Of a stretch of DNA of 64,000 nt, positions 21,693 to 24,903 are shown piece after piece; position 1 is the stretch's first letter; each line of letters starts with the position of its first letter. Source of the DNA: Prototheca cutis (lineage: Eukaryota > Chlorophyta > Trebouxiophyceae > Chlorellales > Chlorellaceae); assembly GCA_002897115.2 (NCBI GenBank), contig BCIH01000003.1, positions 670,938 through 734,937 of the forward strand. The letters are read 5' to 3'. The translations under genes and the position numbers were made by a program. The notes below the pieces were generated by a model that did no database searches, was not told the DNA's origin, and worked only from the letters and a program-made list of their open reading frames with translations.

Positions 21693-24600
21693 TCACCGCA
21701 GCGTGGCGTGGCCCATCGCTGCAATGTGCTTGAACAGCCGCGTCCGTGATTCAAACTCCTGTCCGCACACTTTGCATGCCAGCTGTGAATCAGTGCCTAC
21801 GGCCTCACTGGCCTTCGGCCCACCCTTTTTCTTCCGCCCCTTTTGCTGGCCGCCCCTTTGTTGGGCTGGGCCGACGCCCGTGCCGGGCGCCTGACCACCT
21901 TCTGGCACAGGCCTGCCATGCGTTGGGCCTCCAGAAGGCCCCACCGGCACCGCTCTCCGCCGCCGCCGCGCCGGTGCCTTGCCCTTTGCAGACACGCCCC
22001 AGTCTTCATCAGACCCGGTCGCAGCTTCGGCTTCGGGTTCTGCTGACGCACTGGACTGGGGACCCAGCTGGGCTTTGCCATTCTTGTTGTCATCGGCATT
22101 GTTCGCCAGGCCATCCCCGTGGTCTTCAGCATCAGACACGGCTAAGGCCGCCATCTCCGGCTCCAGGCCGGATTTGGGCTGGCGCTTGGGCTTCCGTCGG
22201 GGCTTGGACTGTCTCCGCTGTGCATTCAGCATCCTCTCAAGAATGGCCTCGTCATCCTCGTCATTGTTATCGCCACTGACATCCTCCTCGCTGGAATTGT
22301 CCTCTTCTTCGGAAGTGGACCTCGGTCGACCGTTGCTCTCAGCATCGCTGTTCAAAATCTCTGACACCGTGGGGAATGCAGAGCGGGCACGCGTGCCGTC
22401 CTGTTGAGAGTCGTCGCCATCCTCTAAACCACTACCAGCATCGCTGTCAGAACCCGTGGACGACGAGTGTGCATCCTCCGAACCCGTTTCTCCCTCCGAG
22501 TCTGGCGCGTCCTCCTTGGACTCCACTCCATCCCCGACCGCACGCTCTGCTTCGGCTTCGCTGGAAGTGGATTCGAGAAGGCCTAGCTCGTCCTCCTCCA
22601 TCATGGCACGCAGCAGCTCCACCGCCTGCTTGTGCTTCTTTGACCTGCATAAAGATGCATGGTACAATGCTGAAAACGATGTTGTAGCAAAGAAAACGTG
22701 TCCCCCCCCCCCCCCCAAAAAAAAACAAAAAAACAAAAAAACAAAAACATACGCACGCTCACTTTTCATGGTTCCCCAGCGCCTGGTTGCTCTTGAAATG
22801 CTTTTCGCATGCCACACAGTACCAGGCGTGCTGCTCTTCCTCCAAATACCCGTCCTCCAAGTCGGAATCGGTGCCAGAAGCCGGCTCAGCCACCCAGGCA
22901 GCCTCCTGAAAAGCCCGGGCCCGGGCCGCACGCTCCTGCTTCTCCCTCTCACGTCTGCAAGGGTTGGCGAAAAGAATCCAGCACGTCGAGGCTGTGCACT
23001 CCACGCAGGCCCAAAGAAAAGAGCAAATCCTCGGAAAAAGTCCAAAAATGGGGGCATTGCATGGAAGGCAACTATCCTAACCATTGGACTACAAGCGCGG
23101 TAAGGAAACAGGTTGCGCTCGCCGGGAATCGAACCCGGATCAATTGCTCACAACGACACATGTCTGGAAAAAATGAATTTCTTGAGCACAAAAAACACGT
23201 CAAAACCTTGCAAATCCAACCGGCCGGACAGACTGCTACTCAAAAGCACTGCCTTCACACCCAGCTGCCGACCATTCCATGACCGCGCACCTCTCGGCCT
23301 CCCTGGCTGCAGTCTCCGCCCTGCGTGCAGCTTCCTCCTTGGCGTGCTCGATCACGCGCCGGTCACGCTTGCGCACAAATGCGACCATTTCACGCACGTT
23401 CTCGTTGTACTCCCGCCGCGCCGCGCGCCGCGACTTTTCGTTCTCCGCCTCCACCATGCGCCGCACCTGCGGTGGTGTTTTGGGGGAGGGCAAGAATGCG
23501 TCAATGGCCCGCCATTCAAGGGACTCCGCAGGCAACCCAGCGTGGGGCCTGAAAAAACACCCGGCGATCCCATGGTGACGAGCATTTTCACAACTGCTCC
23601 ACCATCCATCCATTCAGAGCAGGCCACTACACTTCCACATTCCCGCCGCAAACCCCTCAAAAACCAGCTCAGCCCAAAAGAAGCACCGAACCCCCCTGCT
23701 CGCCTGGCGGTTGGGGGCGCTGGCCGGGTTGTACTCGTCGACCCAAGCAAAGGTCCTCCCTGTCGTGAAGCCGCCCCACGAATTGTAGAACCGGTTCACC
23801 TCAGCCCACTCCGAGCTGGACGCCCCTGTTGGCAGTCGTGGTGGGGGGTCACAGGGCCAGTCCTGACCATGACGAGATGAGGGAGACCTCCATGCGCAAA
23901 GGATGCAGTACGCCCCCCCCCCCCCCAAAAAAAAATAAAAATAAAAAAATGTTTTGGGCAGTGATTTAAAACCTGTTGCCCCACAGCATGAGCCATCCAC
24001 CCAGCCCTCCCCCACACTTCCGCCATCGTACCAAATGGTGGATATTTGACCTTGGCCTTGCTTGCCCCAAATTCCTGCTCCTGCTCCGCCAACTTTGTGA
24101 ACAGAGTGGCATACACGGCATAAAAGCCCTGAACATGGTCGGGGAGCGGGAGTTGGTTTGGCGGCGGCGGCGACATGTGACTGTTCGCATTTGGGCGAGG
24201 TGGACAGGGCCATTGGCAGGCTCCTTCTCTCAGCCTCCTGGAGGCAGCCGCTCTCAAACAAGCGCCTAGCAAAACGGCAATGCCTCGGTACCCTAACTCA
24301 CCCGCGGTCCATCTCCAAATCCTGAATAAATAGTGGAGGAGAAGTGTGCGTAGAGGTTGATGTCATCCGGCGGCGCCTCGCCGTTGGCGGTGGAAGTCGC
24401 ACCAGCCTGGTGCCGCTCGCCAGAGCGCAGGATCGCCTCTCGGTGGCTGTCGTACCTGCAAACAAGCATGACAGTCGGAAGGAGCATGATGTGGTGGTGT
24501 TCTTCGATCTCAGATTCCTCTCAGCGCACTGCAATGCCTCCAGTCATGAGCCAAGGCAAGGACAGGGACACGAGCCAGCCCTCCGCACGACCCACTGCCG

Positions 24601-24903
24601 GCACTTGCCATGAGCGCTCGTGCCTGTCGCTCAGCACCTCGTAAGCATTTTGAATCTCCTTGAAATTCTCGCTCGCAAGCTCAGCTTGATGCTGATTCTT
24701 ATCTGCATGGCAGGGGCAGTGGGCAAGCCGGGTGCAGGATGGCAAGGGCGCAGACCAGAGCGTGTGCCAGGTCACTGCACCTTGTGTGCACCGTCAGACC
24801 CACCTGGATGCCATTTCAGCGCCGCCTTGCGGTATGCCAGCCGGATTACAGCGTCGTCTGCATCCCTGTCCACCTCCAAAATCTCGTATAGACAGCGCAC
24901 CAT
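21693..24903 (-). CDS. DNAJC21/Jjj1-type J-domain zinc-finger co-chaperone
   Basis: Eight exons (minus: 24903-24804, 24702-24609, 24455-24302, 24128-24032, 23825-23704, 23466-23291, 22954-22763, 22644-21693) join in phase to 628 residues. The J domain opens the protein ([27 protein letters not shown] with the HPD core, [11 protein letters not shown]). Family blocks follow: [50 protein letters not shown] and the charged helix [17 protein letters not shown]. One C2H2 finger ([20 protein letters not shown]) comes next, then a long acidic Ser/Glu/Asp-rich region and a final finger ([20 protein letters not shown]). Jjj1 proteins help release export factors from 60S pre-ribosomes. Introns 2 and 5 use GC donors. 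Intron 6 contains the tRNA gene on the same strand. Confidence 0.92.
22702..22716. repeat. Poly-C tract (poly-G in sense) in DNAJC21-like intron 7
   Basis: In the sense direction the order is donor GTGAGC, T-rich with repeated TTTTTTTG, then a 15-nt G-run. Confidence 0.9.
23044..23148 (-). tRNA. Circularly permuted tRNA-Gly (anticodon UCC)
   Basis: On the minus strand the 3' half comes first (23148-23114, 35 nt: position 38, GCAAT, variable TGAT, T arm CCGGG-TTCGATT-CCCGG, acceptor CGAGCGC, discriminator A). A 15-nt spacer (23113-23099) follows, then the 5' half (23098-23062, 37 nt: GCGCTTG, TA, D arm GTCC-AATGGTTA-GGAT, A, GTTGC, CTTCCA). The joined 72-nt molecule folds fully: seven acceptor pairs with one G-U, a five-pair anticodon stem with one G-U, and standard D and T arms. 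It closely resembles plant tRNA-Gly(UCC). A-box and B-box sequences are intact but in swapped order. An oligo-T pol III terminator lies at 23048-23044. Leader CGTTG (23155-23151) can pair with trailer CAATG (23059-23055), leaving a 3-nt bulge at the 37/38 junction, as tRNA splicing endonuclease needs. There is no conventional second half on either side. Confidence 0.88.
23913..23926. repeat. Poly-C tract (poly-G in sense) in DNAJC21-like intron 4
   Basis: Preceded in the sense direction by a T-rich stretch of about 24 nt. Confidence 0.9.

Follow-up and report, generated by a model that had tools for sequence, protein, structure and literature searches.

It is very likely, to judge by its letters, that the 64,000-nucleotide stretch of algal DNA analysed here (the window; C3:670938-734937 in a genome of 19,886,974 bases and 23 contigs) holds a working nuclear tRNA-Gly(UCC) gene of the circularly permuted type II, and that this gene is probably the cell's only source of a tRNA reading GGA codons. 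On the minus strand, from 23148 to 23062, the 3' half of the tRNA (AGCAATTGATCCGGGTTCGATTCCCGGCGAGCGCA) comes first, followed by a 15-nt spacer and then by the 5' half (GCGCTTGTAGTCCAATGGTTAGGATAGTTGCCTTCCA), and when the halves are joined between positions 37 and 38 they give a 72-nt tRNA in which 21 of 21 stem pairs form (G-U counted): 7/7 in the acceptor, 4/4 in the D, 5/5 in the anticodon and 5/5 in the T stem, with the conserved T8, D-loop GG, T33 and T-loop TTC all in place. A sequence-only reading of the window had described these exchanged halves and their 15-nt spacer, the perfect cloverleaf with anticodon UCC, the B box lying before the A box and the oligo-T beyond the 5' half, and each of these points agrees with the coordinates (Table 1), 13 nt separating position 37 from the first T of TTTTT. 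Type II permuted genes are recognized by swapped halves on the same strand with a short spacer and a cloverleaf completed at 37/38, by a T-run after the 5' half with none in the spacer, and by a leader/trailer helix with bulges (hBH/BHB) at the joint; all of these are present here, and the order of an ordinary intron-bearing tRNA gene, 5' half upstream of 3' half, is not. Since the halves are swapped, it is to be expected that standard programs return a blank: ARAGORN reports no tRNA in the 64-kb window, nor in the window together with loci L009 and L010 with introns of up to 300 nt allowed, and Rfam at its gathering threshold reports none in the window either. The predicted gene model also upholds the claim that the tRNA gene lies within intron 6 of a DNAJC21-like gene, in sense orientation.

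Table 1. Features of the permuted tRNA-Gly(UCC) locus and its host gene (window positions)
Feature	Position	Strand	Basis
DNAJC21/JJJ1-like host gene, 8 predicted exons, 628 aa, open in frame throughout	21693..24903	-	splice-site joining and domains
Intron 6, 336 nt, GT-AG, holding the permuted tRNA gene in its sense strand	22955..23290	-	predicted gene model
Leader strand CGUUGU of the leader/trailer helix beside the 37/38 joint	23150..23155	-	helix scan, fold, set-wide pairing
3' half of tRNA-Gly(UCC), positions 38-73, including the B box	23114..23148	-	sequence, covariance model, stem pairs
B box GGTTCGATTCC	23135-23125	-	sequence
Spacer between the acceptor ends, 15 nt, without a TTTT run	23099..23113	-	sequence
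5' half of tRNA-Gly(UCC), positions 1-37, including A box and anticodon	23062..23098	-	sequence, covariance model, stem pairs
A box TAGTCCAATGG	23091-23081	-	sequence
Anticodon UCC	23065-23063	-	sequence
Trailer strand GCAAUG of the leader/trailer helix	23055..23060	-	helix scan, fold, set-wide pairing
TTTTT, probable RNA polymerase III terminator	23044..23048	-	sequence and set-wide T-run

A covariance model of the permuted cloverleaf, whose 13 training rows from the same genome comprise six permuted genes plus seven ordinary tRNAs that had been rearranged, gives this gene as its sole match in the window up to E 10, with 73.6 bits and E 7.8e-20, a value that is not independent because the gene is one of the training rows. 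On 24 loci holding permuted genes not used for training, and on 5 ordinary tRNA loci, the model recovers 27/27 of those permuted genes at 29-68 bits, some of them paralogues of training rows, and its 12 weaker matches (13-22 bits) fall at the five ordinary loci (10), at an orphan tRNA-Phe half (L145) and at an unassigned place in L132 (one each). All 35 real permuted copies from this genome score 20 or 21 of 21 pairs, and 20.03 Mb of dinucleotide-preserving shuffles yield 42 scanner matches, all at 17-19 pairs and none above 19, a control that is lenient because the real sequences are enriched in B boxes and the shuffles are not.

The supply of Gly(UCC) and the genome census

BLAST of the joined 72-mer against the 19.89-Mb genome returns two pieces only, both from this locus and in swapped order, and no other locus. 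Among 14 listed GGTTCGATTCC sites, 11 are the T arms of identified tRNA genes (Gly GCC four, Asp three, Pro two, Gly CCC one and the window gene one), and at the other three neither the permuted scanner nor ARAGORN sees a tRNA; from the BLAST search and the reading of these sites, therefore, no ordinary Gly(UCC) gene is found. An intact tRNA-Gly(UCC) elsewhere was what the sequence-only reading had named as counting against its claim, and the search for one was negative within the sensitivity of BLAST, though such a gene may still exist, as the genome copy is perhaps incomplete and diverged copies can escape a DNA search. That GGA codons are in use follows from the predicted host gene, which alone has 7 of them, and viral contigs searched for a permuted Gly(UCC) gene gave 0 matches.

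The earlier claim of a permuted gene in a trebouxiophyte stands as to the reading and the 37/38 joint, and needs the addition that it is one of at least 35 in this genome. The scan that gave this number took in 242 sequences (333,808 bases) comprising B-box loci and the window, and accepted uninterrupted halves with the junction at 37/38, so that the uniform junction, being a condition of the scan, is not itself a result. From 185 GGTTCRANYCC sites (97 + 88), 168 were read, leaving out 17 GGTTCAACCCC sites beyond C3:605,432; the added B-box variants were 7 AGTTCGANTCT sites and 21 of 29 TGTTCRANTCA sites (20 plus one already in L217), and CGTTCRANYCG and AGTTCAANYCT sites lie outside the census. 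Ordinary genes come from the Rfam tRNA model, with 63 of 246 candidates scored and anticodons assigned by ARAGORN. Because the census is partial and based on B-box patterns, its totals of 35 permuted and 17 ordinary genes are lower bounds and their ratio may shift.

Within this partial census there are at least 35 distinct copies permuted at 37/38, with 23 anticodons: Ala (three AGC, two CGC, UGC), Arg (UCU, CCG, UCG), Cys (GCA), Gln (two CUG, UUG), Glu (four CUC), Gly (UCC, CCC, four GCC), His (GUG), Ile (two AAU, UAU), Leu (AAG, UAA), Pro (UGG), Ser (UGA, CGA), Thr (two AGU) and Val (UAC). The ordinary genes number at least 17 by the Rfam model, with 10 anticodons: Lys (two CUU), Arg (two ACG, CCU), Phe (GAA), Met (CAU), Leu (three CAG, CAA), Asp (three GUC) and Pro (two AGG, CGG). 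No anticodon is common to the two sets, 31 of the 168 GGTTCRANYCC sites read lie in permuted copies and 13 in ordinary ones, and the permuted form is the majority among the tRNA genes found so far. The spacers of the permuted genes range from 9 to 80 nt and are exactly 9 nt in ten of them.

For Asn, Trp, Tyr, elongator Met, Lys(UUU), Glu(UUC) and others, neither form was found in the partial census, and plant-like tRNA baits (Trp, Tyr, Val, Asn, Lys, Met) brought up only the two ordinary Lys genes, an approach too insensitive for completing the set; the scan, for its part, is blind to genes split inside the T arm or carrying extra introns. Eleven T-arm-like sites outside the known tRNAs gave no further permuted gene, one of them being an orphan tRNA-Phe 3' part. 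When the scan was run over the same sequences without its D-stem and anticodon conditions, one extra case appeared, in L130; its spacer is 140 nt long and its T stem imperfect, and it was taken for a chance match.

Leader, trailer and the 37/38 joint

The minimum-free-energy fold of the Gly(UCC) precursor has the four arms together with a 6-bp leader/trailer helix, but in energy the precursor is no more stable than shuffled sequences (z -0.29). In the centroid fold this helix leaves 2 nt on the 3' side, the last leader base and A38. The pairing next to 37/38 that had been proposed is borne out by the 6-bp helix; the 3-nt bulge proposed with it holds only in part, as it needs an alternative pair between C32 and the third leader base. 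The pairing of leader with trailer is a property of the whole set: with one gene taken per anticodon (23 types, not fully independent because some share a tRNA body), the best leader/trailer helix has a mean score of 10.97, against 8.42 (sd 0.57) when leaders and trailers are dealt among genes; in 2000 permutations no score as high as the observed one occurred. The helix is just 3 bp at best in five copies (Leu-AAG, Arg-CCG, both Thr and Val).

Eukaryotic tRNA splicing endonuclease needs an anticodon-intron (A-I) pair, formed by position 32 with the third base from the 3' splice site, and in a permuted precursor I take the third leader base before position 38 to be the place of this pair. Of the 23 anticodon types, 15 have Watson-Crick partners at position 32 and the third-from-last leader base (permutation p 0.003) and the other 8 do not; the pair is C32-G in 10 of 16 types and T32-A in 5 of 7, an exchange of C-G and T-A that amounts to covariation, and among leader positions 1 to 7 an excess of pairing with 32 is seen at the third only (22 types). 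The Gly(UCC) gene has C32 and G at the A-I places, but in the predicted fold that same G pairs with the trailer, and the A-I pair and the leader/trailer helix therefore compete.

A TTTT starts 4-19 nt past position 37 in 35 of 35 copies, as against 4.7% of 50,000 equally sized random windows drawn from the sequences scanned, and lies inside the spacer in 1 of 35. Upstream of the 3' halves the A+T fraction is 0.68 at 41-45 nt and 0.43-0.58 in the other 5-nt bins. As for the enzymes, two genomic stretches score over the cut-off for tRNA_int_endo (PF01974), and the ordinary tRNA genes for Asp, Pro and Leu-CAA carry introns whose removal calls for the same splicing machinery.

From these sequence features I infer how the Gly(UCC) tRNA would be transcribed, processed in order, charged and used. 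RNA polymerase III would make a single transcript that runs from the leader through 3' half, spacer and 5' half to the trailer and stops at the T-run, and this precursor would fold into a cloverleaf with an open anticodon loop and with the spacer bridging its acceptor ends; leader and trailer, paired beside 37/38, would mimic a tRNA intron and so be cut there by the splicing endonuclease, upon which tRNA ligase would join 37 to 38 into a circle, from which RNase P and tRNase Z would then remove the spacer before CCA addition. A circular intermediate has its precedents in a review of permuted tRNA genes (PMC3978253). Since most of the tRNA genes found are permuted, the protein synthesis of this alga probably depends on the cutting, circularizing and re-opening of such RNAs.

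There is a small chance that the locus is instead a rearranged tRNA pseudogene and that the working Gly(UCC) gene sits in an unassembled or missed part of the genome, as might be thought from its single copy and from the roughly 0.1 Mb that is possibly missing if this assembly is the published 20.0-Mb one. Against this, all stems, both A and B boxes and the T-run are intact, a leader/trailer helix is present, no other copy of Gly(UCC) was found, and 34 further copies are built in the same way, several of them in paralogous families. That the halves were swapped by an assembly error or misjoin is scarcely credible, even with the scattered N letters in the assembly, because an error of this sort would not turn up in 35 genes, each time with leader matched to trailer and the T-run at the same spot, and because a relative is reported to have the same form of gene in a telomere-to-telomere assembly (PMC12636532).

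The gene might also work and yet owe its RNA to RNA polymerase II, being made within the host intron and released from it, for which its position in the sense strand of intron 6 can be cited. I consider this improbable, in view of the T-run that follows the window gene and the other 34 copies and of the A+T bump at 41-45 nt upstream of the 3' halves, which fits a TATA-like start for RNA polymerase III. A working permuted gene with a transcript of its own from RNA polymerase III is the preferred reading.

Permuted tRNA genes across lineages

Permuted tRNA genes are usually deemed rare, with no more than 11 in one genome (PMC3978253), against at least 35 in this genome of 19.9 Mb. The 2014 review counts 34 of them, 11 in C. 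merolae, 19 in four prasinophytes, 2 in a nucleomorph and 2 in an archaeon (PMC3978253). In C. merolae 11 of 43 genes are permuted, at four junction positions and with introns in four (Soma et al. 2007, in PMC3978253); the principle is the same as here, where 37/38 with uninterrupted halves is the one arrangement scanned, so that other types may have escaped. The prasinophytes Ostreococcus and Micromonas have type II genes, 3-6 per genome (Maruyama et al. 2010, in PMC3978253), that resemble the present ones in placing the 3' half first, in the 37/38 joint, in the short spacer and in the leader/trailer motif at the joint, and Cys(GCA), Ser(UGA), Ser(CGA), Leu(UAA) and Arg(UCU) are permuted both there and here (PMC3978253). 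In contrast to those 3-6 genes, there are 35 copies here, and Gly, Glu, Gln, Ala, Ile, Thr, Val, His and Pro are added to the list, Gly(UCC) being absent from the review's prasinophyte table (PMC3978253). Chlorarachniophyte nucleomorphs, where they have permuted genes, carry two per genome (PMC4494063), and the archaeon Thermofilum pendens likewise has two, split at 59/60 (PMC3978253); the swapped halves are what these share with the present genes.

The list of hosts given by the sequence-only reading (Cyanidioschyzon, prasinophytes and a nucleomorph) is right as to those hosts and out of date, for permuted genes are already reported from a trebouxiophyte, Auxenochlorella (PMC12636532). In Auxenochlorella UTEX 250-A the tRNAscan set was incomplete and the permuted genes were detected afterwards (Plant Cell 2025; PMC12636532), their number and identities being given in Supplementary Fig. 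S1 of that paper; this is the closest described relative. By the titles and abstract openings of the open-licence literature on permuted tRNA in Trebouxiophyceae, Prototheca, Chlorella or Helicosporidium, it is the sole paper on a trebouxiophyte nuclear genome (PMC12636532). For P. wickerhamii 64 tRNA genes are given, with all tRNAs except selenocysteine recovered by tRNAscan, in passages that make no mention of permutation (PMC7941945), and this count, which suggests no shortage of ordinary genes there, is to be set against the reading preferred here. Relative to the literature covered, what is new is the predominance of the permuted form, the paralogous permuted families and the statistical support for the joint.

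The alga itself is taken to be a non-photosynthetic relative of Auxenochlorella: no chlorophyll a/b-binding (light-harvesting) protein was found in the 19.89-Mb genome, and the best match of a window protein is Auxenochlorella HMA1, which bears out the earlier placement among trebouxiophytes and, at 54% identity over 52% of the query, points to another genus or a distant species. The window has 60-63% G+C, and the published genome of P. cutis JCM 15793 has 20.0 Mb with 60.3% G+C (PMC5772498); the alga is accordingly a Prototheca in all likelihood, probably P. cutis or a near relative, although the 46 scaffolds over 1 kb given for P. cutis do not agree exactly with the 23 contigs here.

Approximately two thirds of the tRNA genes found so far, and of their anticodons, occur in permuted form only, and on balance I favour the view that in this lineage nuclear tRNA genes are permuted by default, with most of the cytosolic tRNA supply passing through a circular RNA made by splicing. 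If so, permuted genes would duplicate and spread as units, and a one-way ratchet from intron-bearing to permuted genes would have been caught partly complete, as in Pro, with CGG ordinary and intron-bearing and UGG permuted. So many cases in one cell allow one to ask how permuted genes arise, how RNA polymerase III starts when the B box comes before the A box, which features of leader and trailer the endonuclease needs, and whether dependence on RNA circularization can become irreversible. Standard tRNA annotation can miss most of the tRNA genes in such a genome.

Families, an orphan half and the host gene

That permuted genes multiply as such is indicated by the Glu(CUC) and Gly(GCC) families, each of four permuted copies with related leaders and trailers. 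The permuted Pro(UGG) (L090) and the ordinary Pro(CGG) (L047), which has a 48-nt intron at 37/38, have identical tRNA letters except at position 34, so at least one change of form was probably recent, in either direction. In L158 (C13:121950-122780) two permuted Gly(GCC) genes stand in tandem, 315 nt from start to start, and ARAGORN joins the 5' half of one to the 3' half of the next into an "ordinary" tRNA with a 235-nt intron; this is the kind of arrangement from which duplication models of permutation start. On the minus strand in L145 (C8:263800-264310), some 100 nt upstream of a permuted Glu(CUC) gene, there is an orphan tRNA-Phe 3' part that differs by one base from its ordinary counterpart and has T-runs after it; no Phe 5' half is seen in the roughly 90 nt readable upstream of this part.

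In the Gly(UCC) gene all five letters of positions 39-43 recur in the trailer and four of the five letters of positions 27-31 recur in the leader, and these repeats look as if they were left over from a duplicated tRNA. As a general account, leaders and trailers as leftovers of duplicated anticodon stems were rejected, because an exact trailer repeat occurs in 1 of 35 copies and a 4/5 repeat in two others.

The protein of the host gene has DnaJ (E 1.9e-23), ZUO1-like ZHD (5.8e-17) and C2H2_jaz (6.8e-9) domains, from which set I take it to be DNAJC21/JJJ1-like. Two of its seven introns are GC-AG, namely intron 2 (24608-24456) and intron 5 (23703-23467), and at about 22700-22750 and 23905-23960 its introns show, in the sense strand, a T-run followed directly by a long G-run.
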